A DNA stretch of 64,000 nt from Sphingosinicella sp. (GTDB lineage: Bacteria; Pseudomonadota; Alphaproteobacteria; Sphingomonadales; Sphingomonadaceae). Shown here one piece after another: positions 5,034 to 42,113 of the stretch (position 1 is its first letter; every line of letters starts with the position of its first letter). The stretch lies in NCBI RefSeq assembly GCF_013911755.1, contig NZ_JACESP010000010.1:1-64000 (forward strand). Direction: 5' to 3'. A program made the translations under genes and the position numbers. Below the pieces are notes generated by a model. The model was not told the origin of the DNA. It ran no database searches and worked only from the letters and a program-made list of their open reading frames with translations.

Positions 5034-5279
5034 GATGTCTGCACTCCGGCCACCGGTTCGCGAGTCGTCTGGTCATGGCGCTACCATAAGCGCGCGCGCG
5101 ACAGCTGCGAGTCGTTTTGACGCGCGGCCGGCATATCGCCCAAATTCTGGGGACGAACCGACCCTGTCTCACCACAGATTGTGGTAAATGCGCGCTTCAT
5201 CTCTTCCCCGCTGACAAGCGTTTCGAAATGTGTTCCACTCGCTCATCCTGATGCACTTCAGAGCAAAGGAGATCGGACT

Positions 5280-5438
5280 ATGGTCGACGCACACCTGGCT
5301 GCGCTTTCGGAAAAACACGCAAACCTTGAAAGCCAGATTGATCAGGAAGTCCACCGACCGCTGCCCGACGAAATCCTCATCGCACAATGGAAAAAAGAAA
5401 AGCTGAGGCTCAAGGAGGTCATCTCCGGCATCCGCTAG
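5280..5438 (+). CDS. DUF465 microprotein
   Basis: A 52-residue protein with the DUF465 pattern LSEKHANLESQIDQEVHRP followed by QWKKEKLRLKEVI. The ATG at 5280 sits behind an excellent ribosome site (AAAGGAG, 8 bases upstream). The frame is open further upstream, but that extension does not match the family. Paralogue of the divergent DUF465 gene just upstream. Its stop codon lies at the outer arm of the large palindrome that follows. Confidence 0.85.
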   Translation: MVDAHLAALSEKHANLESQIDQEVHRPLPDEILIAQWKKEKLRLKEVISGIR

Positions 5439-5487
5439 ACCGCGATCGCTTCAGGTTGATTCAACCTGAAGCGTGAATCGCTGTCTA
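5434..5487. repeat. large intergenic palindrome (REP/MITE-like)
   Basis: The core at 5447-5473 is CGCTTCAGGTTGA, one base, then its exact reverse complement TCAACCTGAAGCG. Outer arms extend the symmetry imperfectly: GCGAT at 5442-5446 pairs with ATCGC at 5477-5481, and AGAC near 5437 pairs with GTCT near 5483. It lies between convergent genes and can form a long hairpin, so it may act as a bidirectional terminator. Its size and near-perfect symmetry suggest a dispersed repeat element. Confidence 0.6.
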
Positions 5488-5505
5488 AACTGTTGCTGAC
5501 CTGGC

Positions 5506-6177
5506 TCAACGCTGTTCGAGCGCCGGCGCATTGTCGTCGGCGCCCGGAAAGCGGCCGCCGTCGATGCCCGCAGCCATCATGGCGCGCGCGCCGCGCATGA
5601 GCCGTTCGAGTTCGGGCCGGTAGGGCGCATCCTTCGGGCTGCGCGCGTATAGATCCTGCCAGACCTTGAGCGCTTCGTCGGGCTCGCCCGCCTGCAGCCA
5701 TGCGAGGCCGAGGAAATAGGGTGGACCAGGATGCGCGGGGTCGATCGCCGACGCCCGCCCGAACGCCAGCCGCGCAGCGGGCGTGATGAAGCCGCCGGCA
5801 TGACGCGTCAGCGCGTTGCCGAGGCCAACCCATAGGTCGGGGACGTCCGGCATCGCCTTCGCGGCGAGACTAAGCCCCTCGATCGCCTGCTCCGTTTTGC
5901 CCTGACGGCTGAGGATATCGGCGAACATCAGCCATGCGCCGACATCACCCGTGTTCTGCAGAAGCCGCCGGCGTGCGGCTTCAAGCTGCGGCGCGGAGTC
6001 GGCATCGATCGCACGCGGCGGCGCCGGCTTGCTCGGCAGCGCCGGGTTGCTCGTCAGCAGATAACCCGCAAGCCCCACGGCGAGCGCAAATCCCACCGGC
6101 AGCAGCGGCATCTTCATCCGCCACAGCACCGCACCGGTCAGCAGCGTCAGCACGGCGATGGCGATCCAGCCGCTCAT
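5506..6177 (-). CDS. ccmI: cytochrome c maturation protein CcmI/CycH-like TPR protein
   Basis: Probable apocytochrome c chaperone of the System I heme-ligation complex. The 223 residues begin with two membrane helices (about 5-20 and 28-46), followed by periplasmic TPR repeats, for example GAWLMFADILSRQGKTEQA and PDLWVGLGNALTRHAGG. The ATG overlaps the ccmH stop (ATGA), so it is the last gene of ccmFGHI. It is shorter than some CcmI proteins, which fits the single TPR domain. The call rests on context plus the membrane-TPR layout. Confidence 0.83.
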   Translation of the reverse strand: MSGWIAIAVLTLLTGAVLWRMKMPLLPVGFALAVGLAGYLLTSNPALPSKPAPPRAIDADSAPQLEAARRRLLQNTGDVGAWLMFADILSRQGKTEQAIEGLSLAAKAMPDVPDLWVGLGNALTRHAGGFITPAARLAFGRASAIDPAHPGPPYFLGLAWLQAGEPDEALKVWQDLYARSPKDAPYRPELERLMRGARAMMAAGIDGGRFPGADDNAPALEQR

Positions 6178-6545
6178 GCGCCTTTCCTCCGGTAGAGCCG
6201 CCAAACGGCGACAGCGCCGATCGCAAGGAACAGCAGCGGCGCCGCCCAAAGCACGAGATTGGCGCCCGTCTTCGGCGGGTCGAAGGTCACGTAGTCGCCG
6301 TAGCGGCTGACGAGATACGATTTCACCTGTTCGGGAGTCTCGCCCGCCGCGATCCGCTCGCGCACGACCGCGCGCATGTCCGCCGCCATGTCGGCGTCGC
6401 TGTCGGCGATCGACTGGTGCTGGCAGACGAGGCAGCGCAGCTCGTGCATCAGCGCACGCGCCGCCGCCTCCTGCGCGGGCGGCAGCGCCGGCGCCTCCGC
6501 GGCGGCCGTGAGCGCCAGAAAGGCGAGCGGCAGCAGCGCCTTCAT
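6174..6545 (-). CDS. ccmH: cytochrome c maturation protein CcmH
   Basis: Thiol-disulfide protein of 123 residues that reduces apocytochrome c for heme attachment. A signal/anchor helix starts the protein, followed by the family motif LRCLVCQ (C38 and C41) with the QSIADSDADMA context, and YLVSRYGDYV. A C-terminal membrane helix (LVLWAAPLLFLAIGAVAVW) precedes a basic tail. This is the short CcmH form without a fused TPR domain, which agrees with a separate ccmI downstream. Both ends overlap neighbours by ATGA. Confidence 0.95.
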   Translation of the reverse strand: MKALLPLAFLALTAAAEAPALPPAQEAAARALMHELRCLVCQHQSIADSDADMAADMRAVVRERIAAGETPEQVKSYLVSRYGDYVTFDPPKTGANLVLWAAPLLFLAIGAVAVWRLYRRKGA

Positions 6546-7081
6546 GAGCCCTTCGCCTCCTCGATATCCTTCAGAATCTCGGCCACCTGCTCGGGGCGTA
6601 TCTGCCCGATGTATTGCTTGCGGATGATGCCCTTGCCGTCGATCAGGAACGTCTCGGGCAGGCCCGACGCGCCGAGGTTCAGCACCGCCTTGCTGTTCGG
6701 GTCCATGCCGATGCGGCGGAACGGGTCGCCGTGATCCTTCAGGAACGCCGTGATGTTCTCCGGCGTGTCGCGCACCGCGATGCCGTGGATCACCACGCCC
6801 TTGTCGGCGAGTGCCTTCAGCTGCGGCGCCTCCACGCGGCATGGCGCGCACCAGCTCGCGAACAGGTTCACGAGCGTCACCGTCCCTTGTCGAAGGTCGC
6901 CGTCGTTGAGGCCGGGGTGCAGTTCGTCCATGCCGACGAGGTCCATCGCGGGCACCGGCTTCCCCACCATCTTCGATACGACCACGCGCTGCTGCGGCGC
7001 GCCCATGCGGTAAACGGCAAGCGCCACGAAGCCGAGGAACATGAGGAGCGGCACGATCAGCGCAATGCGTCTTGCGGTCAT
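6542..7081 (-). CDS. ccmG: thiol:disulfide interchange protein DsbE/CcmG
   Basis: Membrane-anchored periplasmic thioredoxin of 179 residues that passes electrons to CcmH or apocytochrome c. It has an N-terminal anchor helix (residues about 5-23), the active site WCAPC at 77-81 and the cis-proline region GLPETFLIDGKG. The start overlaps the ccmF stop by ATGA and the stop overlaps ccmH in the same way. An in-frame extension upstream lies inside ccmF and is not expected to be translated. Confidence 0.95.
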   Translation of the reverse strand: MTARRIALIVPLLMFLGFVALAVYRMGAPQQRVVVSKMVGKPVPAMDLVGMDELHPGLNDGDLRQGTVTLVNLFASWCAPCRVEAPQLKALADKGVVIHGIAVRDTPENITAFLKDHGDPFRRIGMDPNSKAVLNLGASGLPETFLIDGKGIIRKQYIGQIRPEQVAEILKDIEEAKGS

Positions 7082-8970
7082 TCCGTGTCCTCCCGCCGCC
7101 TGCGGCCCTGCATCATCGCGATGAGTCCACCGAATGCGGCCATCATGCCGCCGATCCAGATGAGCGCGATCATCGGCTGCCACACCAGCCGCACCTGCCA
7201 GCGCCCGCTACCGTCGCCGGGGCCGAGCACGGCGTAGAGGTTTCCGGTGAGGCGTGGCCAGATGTCGGTTTCCGTCGTCTCGTTGCCCGGGCTCACGAAC
7301 GTGCGCCGTTCGGGCGCAAGCACCGTGGTAGCATCCGGTCCGGTCACGCTCAGCATGGCGCGGATCGCGGTGTAGTTCGGCCCCGCCGCAGGCGTGATAT
7401 CGTCGACCTGCGCTGTATACGGCCCCGCGCTCAGTCGACCGCCCGGCGCAAGGTTCGCCAGCGTCTCGATCGTCCCCGCGCCGCTCACCGCGATGCCGAG
7501 CGTGGTGACGGCGATACCGAGGTGCGCGAGCGCCGTGCCCCACACGCTCGCCGGGATACGCCGGATGCGCTTCAGTTTCCGTCCGCGGAAGATCATCACG
7601 CTCGCCGCCGCGAGCCAAGCCGAAAGCGCGACACCCGCCAGCGCGAGCGGGCTTCGCATCCCGAGCGCCAGCGCAACGCCGATCGCCGCGACACCGAGCA
7701 CCAGCGCCGGAACAAGTCGTCGGCCGAGCCCTGCCCAGTCCATCGCCCGCCAGCGCATCAGCGGCCCCGCCGCCATCAGCGCGACGAGCGGCAGCAGCAG
7801 CGGCAGCAGTGCGGTCTGGAAATACGGCGGACCGACCGAGACCTGCTCGCCCGTCGCGGCTTCAAGCAGCAGCGGATAAAGCGTGCCGAGGAACACGACG
7901 CCGAGCACCGCCGACAGGATGAGGTTGTTGACGACAAGGCTACCCTCGCGGCTCACCGGCCGGAACGGCGCGCCCGCCGTGACGGTGCCTGCGCGCAGCG
8001 CATAGAGCGTCAGTGCGCCGCCCACGTAGATCGCCAGCAGGATCAGCAGGAACACGCCCCGCTCCGGATCGACCGCGAACGCGTGCACCGACGTGAGGAG
8101 CCCCGAGCGCACGATGAACGTGCCGACCATGCTGAGTGAGAAGGCGACCACCGCGAGCAGCAGCGTCCAGTTCTTGAGCGCGCCGCGCGCCGCGAGCACG
8201 CCGACCGAATGGAACAGCGCCGTCGCCGCCAGCCACGGCATCAGCGAGGCGTTCTCCACCGGATCCCAGAACCACCAGCCGCCCCAGCCGAGTTCGTAAT
8301 AGGCCCAGAAGCTGCCGAGCGTGATGCCCGCGGTCAGGAAGCTCCACGCGCCGAGCACCCACGGCTTCACCGCGCGCGCCCATTCCGGCGTAACCCGGTT
8401 GAGCACCAGCGCCGCCACTGCGAAGGAGAACGTCACCGAAAGCCCGACATAGCCGATGTAGAGGAGCGGCGGGTGGAACGCGAGGCCGGGGTCCTGCAGC
8501 AGCGGGTTCAATCCCGAGCCCTCGATCGGCGCGGGAACGATGCGCGCGAACGGGTTCGAGGCGATCAGCAGATAGGCGTAGAAGCCAAGAGCGATGAACC
8601 CCTGCGCGGAGAGCATCACCGTGCGGAACCGCTCGCCCAGCCCCTTCGCGCGGATCGCAGCGAGCGCGCCAAACACGGCGAGCACGGACACCCACAAAAG
8701 CATCGAGCCTTCATGGTTCGCCCACACGCCCGTCCATTTGTAGAGTTCGGGCTTCGCGGTGTGGCTGTTGCCCGCAACGAGCGCGACCGAGAAATCGGAT
8801 TTCACGAATGCCCACGTCAGCGCCGCGAAGGCAACCGCACAGAGTGCCCCCTGCAGCAGCGCGGCTGGCACGGCGATGCGCCCGCCATCAGCGCGGAATC
8901 CGGCAAGTGCCTGCGCGAGCGCAAGCCCTGCGGCCAGCCACAAGGCTGCATGACCGATCTCGGGAATCAC
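7078..8970 (-). CDS. ccmF: heme lyase CcmF
   Basis: Large integral membrane component of the cytochrome c heme ligation complex, 630 residues with about 14-15 hydrophobic segments. The tryptophan-rich heme-binding motif GWGGWWFWDPVEN lies at about residues 228-240, with conserved HEGSMLLW near 86 and GLNPLLQDPGLAFHPP near 153-168. First gene of the tightly overlapping ccmF-G-H-I block. Unlike many genomes, it is separated from ccmE by 325 bases that hold no clear gene. Confidence 0.96.
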   Translation of the reverse strand: MIPEIGHAALWLAAGLALAQALAGFRADGGRIAVPAALLQGALCAVAFAALTWAFVKSDFSVALVAGNSHTAKPELYKWTGVWANHEGSMLLWVSVLAVFGALAAIRAKGLGERFRTVMLSAQGFIALGFYAYLLIASNPFARIVPAPIEGSGLNPLLQDPGLAFHPPLLYIGYVGLSVTFSFAVAALVLNRVTPEWARAVKPWVLGAWSFLTAGITLGSFWAYYELGWGGWWFWDPVENASLMPWLAATALFHSVGVLAARGALKNWTLLLAVVAFSLSMVGTFIVRSGLLTSVHAFAVDPERGVFLLILLAIYVGGALTLYALRAGTVTAGAPFRPVSREGSLVVNNLILSAVLGVVFLGTLYPLLLEAATGEQVSVGPPYFQTALLPLLLPLVALMAAGPLMRWRAMDWAGLGRRLVPALVLGVAAIGVALALGMRSPLALAGVALSAWLAAASVMIFRGRKLKRIRRIPASVWGTALAHLGIAVTTLGIAVSGAGTIETLANLAPGGRLSAGPYTAQVDDITPAAGPNYTAIRAMLSVTGPDATTVLAPERRTFVSPGNETTETDIWPRLTGNLYAVLGPGDGSGRWQVRLVWQPMIALIWIGGMMAAFGGLIAMMQGRRRREDTE

Positions 8971-9295
8971 TGTTGGCGCCGCCCCGGAATTCTCATTGCC
9001 AGCGCCTTAGCACCGGCGCGCGCGCAATGCAGCCCGCTTGCGCGCTTTCGTCACGCCTGCGGCGGCAGAATGCCCTTAGGCGCAGAAAATCACGCCGTCG
9101 TGAATGCAGATCGTGGTGGGGAGTGCGGCAACGTATCGCCGTCCGCCTGCACGGGAACCTCAGTACCACGTGAACCGCGCATCCATGGCCCCGCGAAAAA
9201 CCGCCCGACGCCGGGTTCGAAATGATCTGGACCGTCATTGCCGGCGGGTGCCACCTGCCGAGGGGCCGAACGATGCAGCTGTAAGGCGAAGAACT
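8971..9295. other. 325-base gap inside the ccm cluster, no convincing gene
   Basis: Region between ccmE and ccmF, both read on the minus strand. A minus-strand frame from 9238 opens with MTVQIISNPASGGFSR, reminiscent of the N-terminus of diacylglycerol kinase-like proteins (NPxSGG), but then turns into arginine/cysteine-rich sequence with no family signal. Another minus frame reads MDARFTWY, a TGA, then 27 residues that look more protein-like. A short CCCG/CGGG hairpin followed by a T run near 9200-9215 could terminate ccmCDE. I cannot support a functional gene. Confidence 0.4.
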
Positions 9296-9754
9296 CTAGG
9301 GCGCCGGTTTTTCAGGCCGCGCCTTCGCCGCCGCCTCGGCCCTCTCCACCGCCTTCGCCACCTCGGGCGGCATGTAGTTCTCGTCGTGCTTGGCGAGCAG
9401 CGTTTCGGCCTTGAACGTCCCGTCCGCGTCGAAGCGGCCGTCGGCGATCATACCCTGCCCTTCGCGGAACAGGTCCGGCACGATGCCTGTGTAGTCCACC
9501 GGCACCGATTCCAGCCGGTCGGTAACGCGGAAATGGATGGTGAGCCCGTCCGCGCTGCGCGTCAGCGAGCCTTTTTCGACCAGCCCGCCGAGCCGGATCG
9601 CCTGCCCCGGCGCCACACCCTTCGCCACGACGTCGGCAGGCGCATAGAAATACGCCGCCTGATCCTGCAGCGCGGGAAGCGCCAGCGCCGCCGCGATGCC
9701 GAGCGCCGCCACTGCTGCGCCCGCGAGCGCGAGCCGTTGGTGTTTGGGTTTCAT
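9296..9754 (-). CDS. ccmE: heme chaperone CcmE
   Basis: Periplasmic heme chaperone that binds heme covalently and hands it to CcmF. 152 residues: an N-terminal anchor (about 8-28), a beta-barrel OB-fold core, and the heme-attachment motif LLAKHDENYMPPE, where H123 is the expected covalent ligand and Y127 the expected axial ligand. The basic, proline-rich tail is typical. The start overlaps the ccmD stop. Confidence 0.96.
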   Translation of the reverse strand: MKPKHQRLALAGAAVAALGIAAALALPALQDQAAYFYAPADVVAKGVAPGQAIRLGGLVEKGSLTRSADGLTIHFRVTDRLESVPVDYTGIVPDLFREGQGMIADGRFDADGTFKAETLLAKHDENYMPPEVAKAVERAEAAAKARPEKPAP

Positions 9755-9885
9755 CGCCGCTCTCCCCGCAGCGCGTCCGCCGCCTTTTCGGCGCGGCGCA
9801 TCGAAAGCCAGCTCCATGCGAGCACGCCGCCGATGCCGATGACGCCGGCCGCATAAGCTGCGATCACGAAAGGAAGCGCGTTCAT
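9751..9885 (-). CDS. ccmD: heme exporter protein CcmD
   Basis: Tiny 44-residue single-span membrane protein: helix FVIAAYAAGVIGIGGVLAWSW followed by a basic SMRRAEKAADALRGERR tail, the standard CcmD layout. It helps release holo-CcmE from the CcmABC complex. It overlaps both ccmC and ccmE by four bases, so translation is coupled through ccmC-D-E. Confidence 0.92.
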   Translation of the reverse strand: MNALPFVIAAYAAGVIGIGGVLAWSWLSMRRAEKAADALRGERR

Positions 9886-10604
9886 GCTGCGTCTCCCGCA
9901 AGCCGGGCTCGGCGGGCGGCGATGCGCTGCTCGGCGATGATCGCGCGCATCCGCATCAGCACTGCCGCCGCCATCAGCAGGCCGAGCCCCGCGGCACTCG
10001 TCAGCAGCGGATAGAGCATGTCCGGGTGAATACTGGACCCCTTGAGCGTGATCGAGGCGGATTGGTGCAGCGTGTTCCACCATTCCACCGAAAACTTGAT
10101 GATCGGCAGGTTGACGAGCCCGACAATGGCGAGCACCGCCGCTGCCCGCGCCCCCCGGCTGCGCTCGTCGAACGCACCCGCCAGCGCGACAACGCCGAGG
10201 AAGAGGAAGAACAGCACCAGCATCGAGGTCAGCCGCCCGTCCCACACCCACCATGTACCCCACGTCGGGCGCCCCCAGATCGATCCGGTGAGCAGGCAGA
10301 CGCCCGCATAGACCGCACCGACAGGCGCCAGCGCCTCCAGCGCCACTTCGGCGAGCGGATGCTTCCACACGAGGATGGTGATTCCCGCGATGCCGAGCCC
10401 GAGATAGCTCCCCATCGAAATCCAAGCGGTCGGCACATGCAGGTACATGATGCGCACGCTTTCGCCCTGCAGATAATCGGGCGGTGCGTGGAACGCGCCC
10501 CACCACAGGCCCGCCGCCGTAAGCGCGAAACCAAGCACGAGCGCCGCCGCCGTCAACGGGCGGGCGAGCTTCAGGAACCGGGCAGGATTGGCGAACCGAT
10601 GCAT
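9882..10604 (-). CDS. ccmC: heme transporter/handling protein CcmC
   Basis: Membrane protein of 240 residues with about six helices that loads heme onto CcmE. The periplasmic tryptophan-rich motif WGTWWVWDGRLTS lies at about residues 115-127, with conserved histidines in YLHVPTAW (H56) and in the WWNTLHQ context. It heads the ccmCDE block. The partner ABC genes ccmA and ccmB are about 20 kb away in this window. Confidence 0.95.
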   Translation of the reverse strand: MHRFANPARFLKLARPLTAAALVLGFALTAAGLWWGAFHAPPDYLQGESVRIMYLHVPTAWISMGSYLGLGIAGITILVWKHPLAEVALEALAPVGAVYAGVCLLTGSIWGRPTWGTWWVWDGRLTSMLVLFFLFLGVVALAGAFDERSRGARAAAVLAIVGLVNLPIIKFSVEWWNTLHQSASITLKGSSIHPDMLYPLLTSAAGLGLLMAAAVLMRMRAIIAEQRIAARRARLAGDAA

Positions 10605-10773
10605 CAGCCTGTCTCATAAGCACTGTTTTCACTCGCCGCCAGCGCTTGCGCTCGGCGAATGCAGGCGTCAATTATGGCGGCATGTCTGCCGTCCGGCCAA
10701 GCGAGCGCATTGTCACAGGTCAAATCCGGATGATGCATAAGCACGCGGCGGCAATCCTCCATTGGAGAGTTCC

Positions 10774-12912
10774 ATGCTTCGTTCCTGCCTTCTCGCCGGC
10801 GCCGCCGCGCTCGCCATGACCATTGCCGCCCCCGCTTCCGCCGAAACCCCGCCCCCTGCAGCCGTATCGAGCGCCGCCGTCGATGCGCTGCTCGCCGACT
10901 GGGCCGGCCCGAACGGCGGCGTGCCGCCGTGGGACAAGGTGGAGACGCCTCTGTTCAAGCCGGCGTTCGACAAAGCCTCGGCGCAGATGCTCGCCGAAGT
11001 CGATGCCATCGCGAACAACCCCGCCCCGCCCACCTTCGCGAACACGCTCGAAGCCCTCGAAAAGAGCGGCGAAGCGCTGAACCGCCTCGCCACGCTGTTC
11101 TTCGTGATGAGCTGGAGCAAGAACGATCCCGCGCATCAAGCCGTTTCGGCGGAGCTTCTGCCCCAATTTTCGGCGGTGGAAGACAAGGTCAACTTCAACC
11201 GCAAGCTCTTCGAGCGCGTGAAGGCGGTTTACGACGCGCGCGAGACGAGCGGCCTCAATGCCGAACAGAAGCGCCTCGTTGAAAAGAGCTACGAGAATTT
11301 CGTGCGCAGCGGCGCCAGCCAGCCGCCCGAAAAGCAGGCCGAACTCGGCAAGCTCAACCAGCAGCTCGCCACGCTCTTCAACGATTTCAGCAACAAGGTG
11401 CAGGCGGACGAAGACACGTGGGTCACGCTTGGCGAGGGCGATCTGGGCGGTCTGCCGCCTGCGCTCGTCGCCGGCTACAAGGCCGCCGCCACGGAACGCA
11501 AGCTGCCGGGCTATGTCGTCGTCAACACGCGTTCGGCGGTCGATCCGTTCCTCACCTTCTCCAGCAATCGCGCGCTGCGCGAGAAGGTGTGGCGCGCCTT
11601 CATCATGCGCGGCGACAATGCGAACGCCAGCAACACGCACGACGATATCCGCAAGATCGTGAAGCTGCGCGCCGACCGTGCAAAGCTGCTCGGCTACCCG
11701 AGCCACGCGCACTGGCGCATGTCGGACACGATGGCGAAAGACCCGCAGAAGGGCCTCGACCTCCTGATGCGCGTCTGGCCCGCCGCCCGGGCGCGGGTCG
11801 CCGAGGAAGTCGCCGACATGCAGAAGCTCGCGGACAGCGAGGGCGCGAAGATCACCATCGAGCCGTGGGACTACCGCTACTACATGGAGAAGGTCCGCAA
11901 GGCGCGCTACGACCTCGATCAGAACGAGTTCAAGAACTACTTCGAGCTCGAGAACATGATCGCCGCCTCCTACCACATGGCGGGCAAGCTCTACGGCTAC
12001 AGCTTCAAGGAAATCACCGGCACGCTGCCCACGTTCCACCCGGACGTGCGTGTCTATCACGTCACGAACACGGCGGACGGCACGCACGTCGGCTATCTCT
12101 ACCGCGACGATTTCGCCCGCCAGTACAAGCGTTCCGGCGCCTGGCAGAGCACCTATCGCGGGCAGGACAAGCTCGGCGGGCGCCAGCGTGACGCGATCGT
12201 CTCCAACAACAACAACTTCACGAAGGGCGCGCCGGGCGAGCCGGTGCTGATCAGCCTTGATGACGCGCGTACATTGTTCCACGAATTCGGCCACGCGCTC
12301 CACGCGCTCGCCAACGACACCACCTATCCCTCGCTCGGCGGCACGCCGCGCGATTTCGTGGAGTTCCCGAGCCAGGTGCACGAGAACTGGGTGCTGACGC
12401 CCGATATCCTCGATACCTATGCGCGCCACTACAAGACCGGCGCGAAGATGCCGCAGGCGCTGATCGACAAGCTGAAGGCCGCGGAAACCTTCAACCAGGG
12501 CTTCGAGACGGTCGAGTTCCTCGGCTCGGCCATCGTCGACATGAAGATCCACATGGACCCGTCGGGCAAAATCGATCCAGCGCAGGCTGAAAAGACCATC
12601 CTCGGCGAGATCGGGATGCCGCGCGAAATCGTGATGCGGCACCGCTTGCCGCAATTCGGCCACCTGTTCTCGTCGGACGCGTATTCGGCGGGCTATTACT
12701 CCTACCTCTGGTCGGACGTGATGGCGGCGGACGCGTGGGCGGCGTTCGAGGAGGCGGGCGATCCGTGGGATGCGGCGACCGCGAAGCGGTTCAAGGACAT
12801 CATCCTTGCAACCGGCGACGCCATCGACCGCGCCGAAGCCTACCGCGCGTTCCGCGGCCGCGATCCGCAGGTCGAGGCACTGCTGAGGAACCGGGGCTTC
12901 CCAACCGACTGA
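10774..12912 (+). CDS. M3-family zinc metallopeptidase (peptidyl-dipeptidase Dcp type)
   Basis: Oligopeptidase of 712 residues with a Sec signal peptide (LAGAAALAMTIAAPASA), so probably periplasmic. The zinc motif HEFGH is at residues 503-507, with the downstream glutamate in the FVEFPSQVHENW region as the third ligand. Size and the C-terminal HLFSSDAYSAGYYSYLWSDV signature match the Dcp branch, which removes C-terminal dipeptides. The ATG at 10774 follows TTGGAGAG; a TTG four codons upstream is less likely. Monocistronic. Confidence 0.92.
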   Translation: MLRSCLLAGAAALAMTIAAPASAETPPPAAVSSAAVDALLADWAGPNGGVPPWDKVETPLFKPAFDKASAQMLAEVDAIANNPAPPTFANTLEALEKSGEALNRLATLFFVMSWSKNDPAHQAVSAELLPQFSAVEDKVNFNRKLFERVKAVYDARETSGLNAEQKRLVEKSYENFVRSGASQPPEKQAELGKLNQQLATLFNDFSNKVQADEDTWVTLGEGDLGGLPPALVAGYKAAATERKLPGYVVVNTRSAVDPFLTFSSNRALREKVWRAFIMRGDNANASNTHDDIRKIVKLRADRAKLLGYPSHAHWRMSDTMAKDPQKGLDLLMRVWPAARARVAEEVADMQKLADSEGAKITIEPWDYRYYMEKVRKARYDLDQNEFKNYFELENMIAASYHMAGKLYGYSFKEITGTLPTFHPDVRVYHVTNTADGTHVGYLYRDDFARQYKRSGAWQSTYRGQDKLGGRQRDAIVSNNNNFTKGAPGEPVLISLDDARTLFHEFGHALHALANDTTYPSLGGTPRDFVEFPSQVHENWVLTPDILDTYARHYKTGAKMPQALIDKLKAAETFNQGFETVEFLGSAIVDMKIHMDPSGKIDPAQAEKTILGEIGMPREIVMRHRLPQFGHLFSSDAYSAGYYSYLWSDVMAADAWAAFEEAGDPWDAATAKRFKDIILATGDAIDRAEAYRAFRGRDPQVEALLRNRGFPTD

Positions 12913-36806: not shown

Positions 36807-37013
36807 TCAGGCCGATTTCAGGCTGACCGCACTCGTGCGGCCGCGCTGATCGCGCTCCAGCTCATAGCTGACGCGCTGGTCCTTATCGAGCGTCTCCATG
36901 CCCGCCATCTGGACGGCGGTGATGTGGACGAACGCGTCTTCGCCGGAGCCTTCGGGCGCGATGAAGCCATAGCCCTTCTGGGCGTTGAAGAATTTTACGG
37001 TGCCGATAGGCAT
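36807..37013 (-). CDS. cold-shock protein, CspA family
   Basis: A 68-residue single-stranded nucleic-acid-binding OB-fold protein. RNP1 KGYGFIAPE (13-21) and RNP2 DAFVHITAV (26-34) are present. It is expected to melt RNA structure in the cold or stationary phase. A promoter with 17-base spacing lies about 120 bases upstream, leaving a long leader typical of csp mRNAs. Confidence 0.95.
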   Translation of the reverse strand: MPIGTVKFFNAQKGYGFIAPEGSGEDAFVHITAVQMAGMETLDKDQRVSYELERDQRGRTSAVSLKSA

Positions 37014-37139
37014 AGTGTGTCTCAGTATTCAAATCGTGATCGTACCCGCGCACCACATGGCGGCGGGTGCCGAGAGGCCGGTGTTCTGAAAAGGGGTGCC
37101 GGAGCGCCGCAATCCGTCGCGCGCAACGTCAGCGAGACC

Positions 37140-37168
37140 TATATAGCGCATGTGGGGTTAATTTACAA
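37140..37168 (-). promoter_or_regulatory. sigma70-type promoter of the cold-shock gene
   Basis: Read on the minus strand: -35 TTGTAA (37168-37163), 17 bases, -10 TATATA (37145-37140). Transcription would start near 37133, giving a roughly 120-base 5' leader. Confidence 0.55.
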
Positions 37169-37218
37169 TGTCGGGGGATAGGCATGCCTAATATAAATTA
37201 GGCGGCTCTTCCATTGCT

Positions 37219-37515
37219 TCAGCCTTTAATAACAGCTTTGGTCAGCTCGCTGATCCGCGCATCAATGTCCACATCTGATACTTCAATTTTCAATTTATCT
37301 TGGATGAATTGGTGGCGAGCATCACTCTCCCGCAGGATCTCTGCCCACGTTTTGACCCAAAGCGTATAATTATTTCCCGTTTGCGCTACGCCACGCGCCC
37401 GATCGGACTGGTTGATTCGCGCTTCAACGGAGTCATCATATTCGCTGGTTATTAGAAAGAAATGCCACCGGGTACTAGTATGGCTGAAGTCCGGCTGCGT
37501 TCGCATGGCATTCAT
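37219..37515 (-). pseudogene. C-terminal part of frameshifted GHKL-nuclease gene
   Basis: A 98-residue frame beginning MNAMRTQPDFSHTSTRWHFF. Read backwards across its start, the same frame gives QVEDYMNAMR, which continues naturally from the GRKEL end of the upstream ATPase-nuclease frame, so this is most simply its displaced C-terminus: the last helix-strand units of the nuclease fold (FFLITSEYDD) and a helical tail. Its ATG also overlaps the upstream stop (ATGA), so it could in principle be made separately. AT-rich like the upstream gene. Confidence 0.6.
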
Positions 37516-39164
37516 ATAATCTTCAACCTGACAAGCTCTTTGCGACCAACCTTCAGAGAAGGGCGCTTCAGTTCGATCAGTAGATATTCACGATTGCCCT
37601 GCTCAGGACCCGGTACCACCCGCCCGAGAAACTGGTCCACTCGGCCGCGTTTACCATCTTGCTTGGTGACCTTTTCCTTTTTTCCTTTGCTACCAAGATC
37701 ATGGGCGACACGTTCCATTACTCGAGAAAGTCCTGCCTCTGGCAAGGTAAAATGAAACTGCTCACCAAACAGCCAAGTGTTATCGCGAACTAGCGCATCA
37801 AGATGGCCGCGCTCTTTCACAGTTTGGCGGTACTTGGGTTCAAAAACCATGCTGCGCAGAATGGACAGCGTCGCTACACGATCAGCGATTAGACTCGAAG
37901 ACGATATGATGTTTCCAAGTTCAGTACGCTGTAGCAACTCAGAAAACTCGTTTTGCTGCGCCTTAGGTAAATTGACGACTGCCCGGAGGATCGTCGAAAG
38001 TGCGTCTGGGTTGTGCTTCACCGCCTCCTTGAGAAAGGTAAGCGTCATCAACTTCAATGAGCTGTCAGCGCGAGCGAACTCGCGCGAGTGCGACGATACT
38101 GCATAAGTCGCAATATCGAAGACCTGACGCTCACGTTTCTCCACCTCGTCGCTGGGCTCTCCCTCGTATGGATACGCCCCTTGGTCCTTCAACTCTTGGA
38201 TCAAGCCCCTCGAAAGATCAGCCTGTCGCTGCCGAAAATAGTCCTTCAGATCCGATCGGATATGTTCGAGAACATGCAGAAAGTCAGGATCGTTAATGCC
38301 TTCAAGGTCCAAGAGATTTGCGTCTGCAAGCTCGCGGAAGAAAGAGCTATATGCATAGGCTGAGTAGGTAAAGTTCGGCGCCGTAACGTAAGCGGCCTGT
38401 GAGCCAAGAACGATTCCGTTGTCTCCACCAAAGAAAATTTGGCGGCTTTCAGTCGGCGTACTCCACTCGATAACCTTAACACGAAGATCTTCAATAATTC
38501 TATTTGGACATACAATAGTACTTTGCGGGATATCGTGCGTCTTATGTATTGTGATACGTGGATCAACTTCGAAACCGTTAAAGTATATTCGTGCATCTGG
38601 ATACTGTAGAACGTAAGGGGCGAAAATTGTACTGAATTGACGGAATGCGTCAGGGCTGTCTAGAATATCTAACGCCTCTTTCAGAGGCGATAGTTCAACT
38701 GTTGTTCCAATATCATCTTCGGTTTCGATCGCGTCGGCTCGATCACAATTTTCCAGATTGTTAGCCTGAATGGTCAGCGTCAACGCAGAGCGTTTTCCGT
38801 TTTTTTCTGACACACTCGTCCAGCGCGCGCGCCGGGCGAGCGAGAAGAACTTCAGCCGACCACGACCTTCTTTGCCATGTACCGCTCGCTCAAGCGCTTT
38901 CGTCTTTACTGTCGTGCGTTTGTGAGAAGCGCCTAGGTTGCTAAAATCATGATCCGCACGTTCCGGTGCGATCCCATGCCCATTGTCTATGATGCGGATC
39001 GCCACGATCCCGCCGAGTTCGTTTTTTTTAAGCTCTACCCGGACCTCGGTCGCGTCGGCGTCGAGCGCATTCCAGACGAACTCCGCGATCCCCTTGATAG
39101 GATCACGGGTGCTGGCATCCTTCTCGAGGAAGTCCTGTTTTGCCTGTAGGCTTAGGATCGTCAT
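37512..39164 (-). CDS. GHKL (MORC/MutL-like) ATPase with C-terminal PD-(D/E)XK nuclease domain, frame broken near the end
   Basis: A 550-residue protein. N-terminal GHKL ATPase: E28, N32 and D35 in AEFVWNALDADA, DNGHGI at 60-65, and the lid region HGKEGRGRLKFFSLARRARW at about 96-115, a pattern shared with MORC and MutL-type ATPases. The middle is helical. At the end, RVDQFLGR (D510) and YLLIELKRP (E531, K533) form a PD-(D/E)XK nuclease motif. The frame then stops within the domain; the continuation lies in the overlapping next ORF. Start ATG 39164 behind GTGGGA. Lower G+C than both neighbours. Role inferred: DNA-targeting defence. Confidence 0.82.
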   Translation of the reverse strand: MTILSLQAKQDFLEKDASTRDPIKGIAEFVWNALDADATEVRVELKKNELGGIVAIRIIDNGHGIAPERADHDFSNLGASHKRTTVKTKALERAVHGKEGRGRLKFFSLARRARWTSVSEKNGKRSALTLTIQANNLENCDRADAIETEDDIGTTVELSPLKEALDILDSPDAFRQFSTIFAPYVLQYPDARIYFNGFEVDPRITIHKTHDIPQSTIVCPNRIIEDLRVKVIEWSTPTESRQIFFGGDNGIVLGSQAAYVTAPNFTYSAYAYSSFFRELADANLLDLEGINDPDFLHVLEHIRSDLKDYFRQRQADLSRGLIQELKDQGAYPYEGEPSDEVEKRERQVFDIATYAVSSHSREFARADSSLKLMTLTFLKEAVKHNPDALSTILRAVVNLPKAQQNEFSELLQRTELGNIISSSSLIADRVATLSILRSMVFEPKYRQTVKERGHLDALVRDNTWLFGEQFHFTLPEAGLSRVMERVAHDLGSKGKKEKVTKQDGKRGRVDQFLGRVVPGPEQGNREYLLIELKRPSLKVGRKELVRLKII

Positions 39165-39292
39165 TCGTATTCCCACTCGTGATACGATGGCTTAGCCTGA
39201 GTAGTTAGATATCGCGAGAGGGAACGCTCGAAGTTTGACCGGGTGCGGGGACCTAAATCTCGAGAGCTATCGCCGTTCGGTCCAGTCAACAT
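39161..39292 (-). CDS. short ORF coupled to the GHKL gene
   Basis: A frame ending RSNFERSLSRYLTTQAKPSYHEWEYE whose TGA overlaps the GHKL start (ATGA). From the ATG at 39292 it gives 43 residues; the frame stays open further toward acnA, so the real start is uncertain. The tail reads like a genuine basic-then-acidic C-terminus. It may be a small partner or the remnant of a larger gene lost at the island edge. No family recognised. Confidence 0.4.
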   Translation of the reverse strand: MLTGPNGDSSRDLGPRTRSNFERSLSRYLTTQAKPSYHEWEYE

Positions 39293-39431
39293 TTTGACAA
39301 GCCCCTCTGCGACTTTCGTCCCCTTCCCAACCCCGCTCCCCTTCGTTAAAGCAGCCCCGACTCCGGCGGTTGCTGCGCTGCAATAGGCGCGTACGGCCGG
39401 GCCTGAATGGCAAGACAAGGGGATCGTGAAG

Positions 39432-42113
<2,682 letters not shown>

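Follow-up and report, generated by a model that had tools for sequence, protein, structure and literature searches.

A probable anti-phage ATPase–nuclease gene of the paraMORC3 type, broken in frame, between cspA and acnA in Sphingosinicella sp.

The 64,000-nucleotide stretch analysed here (the window; contig NZ_JACESP010000010.1 of assembly GCF_013911755.1, from Sphingosinicella sp.) carries between cspA and acnA a gene for a GHKL ATPase followed by a PD-(D/E)XK nuclease. We consider it probable (roughly 0.85) that the gene is a one-gene anti-phage system acquired by horizontal transfer, encoding a nuclease of the paraMORC3 type (GHKL-Shedu-like), and that its frame is now broken. What the analysis shows directly is the domain content with its conserved catalytic residues, a foreign base composition, a site that varies within the genus, and the broken frame. 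That the protein would serve in defence, and would require both ATPase and nuclease to do so, is an analogy drawn from a tested protein with this layout. The initial annotation proposed an undescribed system. This is not the case: paraMORC3 was described in 2008 and a GHKL-Shedu protein was tested in 2025, and the gene in the window is a further, frame-broken member.

Domains, active site and frame break

The features of the gene are as follows.

37512..39164, minus strand: main open reading frame (ORF), comprising the GHKL ATPase, the S5/middle region and the first part of the nuclease; close relatives have their ATG at the aligned position of its start
38226..39164, minus strand: GHKL ATPase and S5-like transducer, about residues 1–313
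37535..37847, minus strand: first part of the nuclease domain, with E468, D510, E531 and K533 (numbered from the ATG)
37219..37533, minus strand: remainder of the nuclease domain, read in a different frame; this ORF has an ATG of its own at 37515, which overlaps the main stop as ATGA

The motifs originally quoted all lie on the minus strand within the ORF 37512–39176, whose likely start is the ATG at 39164; an in-frame GTG is found upstream at 39176. Pfam identifies the ATPase domain as HATPase_c_3 (PF13589, E 2e-18). It is followed by an S5 domain, and the residues of the N-box and G-box are invariant in 18 of 18 aligned rows. The nuclease residues D510, E531 and K533 were correctly numbered, and E468 is added to them here. 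The E, the D and the ExK are invariant both in alignment A1 (22 relatives) and in alignment A2, where the corresponding window residues are E472, D514, E535 and K537. The Pfam nuclease model HSDR_N_2 matches 15 of 18 members (best E 3.1e-6), judged against a control set that was small (7) and roughly cut. Foldseek, run with a model of the C-terminal part, gave no match at E ≤ 0.001; the best, at 0.01, was Cap4, followed by AspBHI and MspJI. The predicted fold thus has weak but nuclease-like matches, which are compatible with the assignment and not decisive. The A4 profile gave 0 matches against solved sequences.

The comparison with Shedu, suggested in the initial annotation, holds at the level of deep profiles and fails at the level of Pfam. 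Alignment of the nuclease domain with SduA profiles by hhalign reached 95.9% (E 5.5e-9) only after enlargement of the family, the first runs with 22 and 8 rows having given 5%; the repeats used 44 rows with duplicates and then 35 non-redundant rows. The members added were chosen by a motif that requires E or D at the position of E468, which left out L102–L106; L106 has no ORF of at least 100 aa matching the family profile. The Shedu side comprised 22 of 23 SduA domains, L115 being dropped for a stop. At this deep-profile level the nuclease domain is distantly homologous to the Shedu nuclease. By contrast, the Pfam DUF4263/SduA_C model PF14082 matched none of the 18 members at E up to 10, with members scanned singly, eight of them as the C-terminal domain only and the window protein as two pieces. 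The PADLOC SduA model matched two of the 18, with a best E of 0.0035.

The frameshift reported earlier is indeed present in the assembly. The main frame stops at 37512–37514, and the break lies near 37,534, inside the nuclease domain. Two overlapping pieces match one family profile (model positions 2–550 and 546–651), and the 98-residue tail matches the C-termini of the relatives, with 79% identity to the nearest, L002 (from Sphingobium estronivorans). The tail is in the same frame in 32 of 37 relatives, these being the matches with E ≤ 1e-6 and an ORF of at least 100 aa from 62 loci, some of them near-identical to one another. The other five are a copy at a contig end (L003), one that runs into an insertion sequence (IS; L058), two split copies (L031 and L020) and a fragment (L032). 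The splits in L031 (1492–3488; the same locus as L053), L020 (7965–10009) and G479 (C6:2791228–2791892) also lie in or near the nuclease domain. A preference of breaks for this domain, based on these three and the window, was considered and dropped, because plasmid copies without the N-terminal part also exist.

Between the window gene and L002, nonsynonymous divergence (dN) amounts to 0.140 in the main part and 0.118 in the tail; the L002–L003 value, for the main part, is 0.183. Synonymous divergence was saturated for these pairs and no ratio was computed. From the dN values and the unbroken relatives we infer that the lesion is either recent or an assembly error. With its nuclease domain interrupted, the copy in this genome is probably inactive, unless the lesion is an error or the two parts come together.

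Insertion site and occurrence of the family

The site is described by the following features.

36807..37013, minus strand: cspA, cold-shock protein, left neighbour (Pfam CSD, E 2.6e-20)
about 37186..39281, no strand: insert between cspA and acnA, 2,096 bp, 50.4% GC, from congener alignment
39161..39292, minus strand: 43-aa ORF, whose stop overlaps the main ATG as ATGA and which begins in flanking DNA
39426..42113, plus strand: acnA, aconitase, right neighbour (Pfam, E 1e-172)

The block had been described as AT-richer than its surroundings and as lying between cspA and acnA, and both points are borne out. Its GC content is 50.4%; sliding windows of equal size that do not overlap the insert average 66.0% (sd 2.0), and even the lowest of them (60.7%) exceeds it. 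In alignments of the window to five congeners, the left part ends at 37175–37185 and the right part resumes at 39281–39315, which defines an insert of about 37186–39281. The proposed check for presence or absence between cspA and acnA gave this result: four of the five congeners (L084, L085, L086 and L087) lack an insert, having 15 to 170 bases at the site, and the fifth (L083) has about 2.5 kb of 40% GC that does not align with the window. The gap between the two genes is an apparent exchange site, occupied in two of six genomes of the genus.

The alternative insert (L083:2427–4911, congener G201) contains two ORFs, with a P-loop GRKGSGKT recognised by eye and weak matches to TIR-effector and AAA proteins; these ORFs are possibly frame-broken as well. 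Between the ends of the window insert (about 90 bases per end) there are no exact direct or inverted repeats of 7 to 14 bases, and no integrase was seen within it. Its left edge falls just outside a promoter-like pair for cspA (TTGTAA, 17, TATATA; 37168–37140), noted by eye and in no scan listing; a promoter scan of 37000–39500 found four, against 2.2 expected by chance. Outside the genus, cspA was next to acnA in none of 29 loci, each ending no more than about 1.5 kb beyond acnA; the acnA set consisted of 30 loci including the window's own, from 36 of 39 genomes with a match.

The small coupled ORF that had been noted ahead of the gene is present. Searches of the other 61 loci (best E 0.15) and of the rest of its own genome (best E 0.74) gave no significant relative, and since its ATG is outside the insert, the junction may have created it incidentally.

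Relatives of the main gene are few. Using tblastn at E 1e-5, they were found in 45 of 72,556 plasmid records and two of 50,697 phage records; two scans of viral contigs gave 2 and 27 pattern matches, with no relative confirmed. Among 298 genomes of the bacterial family, four including its own have a relative at E ≤ 1e-60, a line of our own choosing. At E 1e-3 the number is 25, and those beyond the four are short matches, 20 to the ATPase part and one to the C-terminal part. None of the five congeners has a relative at E ≤ 1e-60, two of these genomes being only 78% and 83% complete. Across the phylum, 11 of 398 genomes (own included) have one at E ≤ 1e-20, so the family is sparse.

In four of eight annotated regions the relative has a named defence or restriction-modification (R-M) gene no more than 9 kb away, a count made with no random control: a Hachiman-like helicase and AbiJ in L055, a type ISP R-M gene in L059, Dcm, LlaMI and Drt2 in L060, and an N-6 methylase in L062. 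As far as their genes are named, L056, L057 and L058 have nothing of this kind beyond toxin–antitoxin, integrase or IS genes. L061 is Pasteurella phage Pmp14, in which the relative (9004–10962) lies amid tail genes and is annotated as hypothetical. No partner gene is conserved in more than three of 32 loci. Neighbours shared by unrelated loci include an integrase (L056/L057), an RHE_PE00001 gene (L055/L057) and an N-6 methylase-like gene (L027/L062). In G327, a relative and a clear SduA_C gene adjoin convergently (L137:3232–4485 and 5175–7265).

On the grounds of the variable site, the sparse family, the defence or R-M neighbours in four of eight regions, the phage copy and the tested protein of the same architecture, the anti-phage role put forward in the initial annotation is well supported as an inference.

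Proposed mechanism and alternative explanations

Intact relatives would most likely act as a dimer. The GHKL-S5 part would bind ATP and close a clamp resembling that of MutL or MORC, either on DNA or on a DNA-bound infection signal. Closure of the clamp would switch on the C-terminal PD-(D/E)XK nuclease, and the activated nuclease would cut phage DNA. One observation weighs against the E-D-ExK assignment of the nuclease: four distant relatives (L102–L105) have P or N at the E468 column, with the D and ExK kept, and their active site may be shifted or altered.

We think it very unlikely that the gene instead encodes a GHKL-containing type II restriction enzyme (BbrUII/HgiDII) whose methyltransferase has been lost. 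Such enzymes also have an N-terminal GHKL ATPase, and they provide the best NCBIfam match (E 6.6e-15), with PADLOC REase_II at E 6.2e-8; moreover, relatives lie near methylase or R-M genes in L059, L060 and L062, and the upstream gene annotated as an N-6 methylase in L062 is shared with L027. However, the NCBIfam match scores 54.7 bits, far below the family cut-off of 550, and covers the ATPase part only (residues 30–168); the insert encodes no methyltransferase, nor does one recur in more than three of 32 loci. The resemblance of the GHKL part to MutL and MORC could also point to a MutL-like repair or chromosome-maintenance factor with no part in defence. This is highly improbable for a gene that is accessory, of foreign composition and not found in the five congeners (with the completeness given above), and that has relatives on plasmids and phages.

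Other variants concern the break and leave the paraMORC3-type anti-phage reading in place. It is possible, though we do not lean towards it, that the break arose in sequencing or assembly and that the strain has an intact, active gene: the assembly is a draft of 48 contigs, the dN values do not point to relaxed selection, and the tail is conserved like the rest, but split copies occur elsewhere too (L031, L020 and G479). An enzyme working as two pieces, with stop and restart in the ATGA overlap providing the 98-residue nuclease complement, is very unlikely. The main stop and the tail ATG do overlap in this way and the tail retains protein-like conservation; against this, the nuclease domain itself is cut, and the protein is a single chain in 32 of 37 relatives. 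We likewise give little credence to a broader proposal, in which the break is functional, yielding two polypeptides that form a nuclease only when both accumulate, and the cspA–acnA gap is an integrase-free swap site for one-gene defences.

Comparison with known systems

In the passages of Iyer, Abhiman and Aravind (2008, PMC2292703) used here, paraMORC3 proteins consist of GHKL, S5 and a C-terminal E-D-ExK domain with RecB-like profile matches. They are described there as patchy in proteobacteria and Bacteroidetes, with a standalone subset. Compared by this description, the window gene has the same layout, with GHKL, S5 and a C-terminal restriction-fold domain bearing E-D-ExK, and the HSDR_N_2 matches agree with the RecB-like character reported there. 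It also resembles the standalone subset: the insert lacks a helicase or methyltransferase partner, as had been stated, and there are no recurrent neighbours in 32 loci. It differs in being frame-broken, and the E column is without E in four distant relatives.

The tested protein is VcSduA (locus tag VC_00276, strain A1552), a type I-D Shedu protein which, in the parts of the 2025 study drawn on here (PMC12137116), has a GHKL ATPase followed by a PD-(D/E)XK nuclease in one chain. It protected E. coli against Drexlerviridae; protection was lost in ATPase and nuclease mutants, E27 and K557 being needed (PMC12137116). Its authors link it to paraMORC3 and Shedu type I-D, and argue for an ATP-gated clamp that controls the nuclease (PMC12137116). 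For EcSduA, DNA-end sensing is described in the part of a review considered here, and a second review recounts the VcSduA work. As far as these descriptions go, VcSduA and the window gene share the one-chain layout, the single gene and the variable island or site. The spacing from E to K is 530 in VcSduA (E27 to K557) and 499–528 in the rows of A1 and A2. VcSduA is reported there with DUF4263, whereas Pfam finds no DUF4263 in the window protein.

The genome itself has two clear SduA_C matches elsewhere, at C23:12075–12569 (L089, E 9e-26) and C34:112973–113458 (L096, E 7.9e-22). In a different GHKL-Shedu arrangement, a 686-aa GHKL protein (L095:1174–3234) reaches 27.1 bits with Pfam SduA_C, against a cut-off of 27, and adjoins an ORF that by eye resembles a cytosine methyltransferase. 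To our knowledge, canonical Shedu SduA has no GHKL ATPase. Its structures (PDB 8ti8, 8ti9 and 8ps4) match the predicted fold of the nuclease domain, tied with other nucleases.

With this gene the GHKL-nuclease defence family gains a member whose frame is broken, together with an intact close relative (79% identical) outside Vibrio; the locus also indicates a variable cspA–acnA site within one genus. The deep-profile link between the paraMORC3 and Shedu nucleases supports the grouping proposed in 2025.
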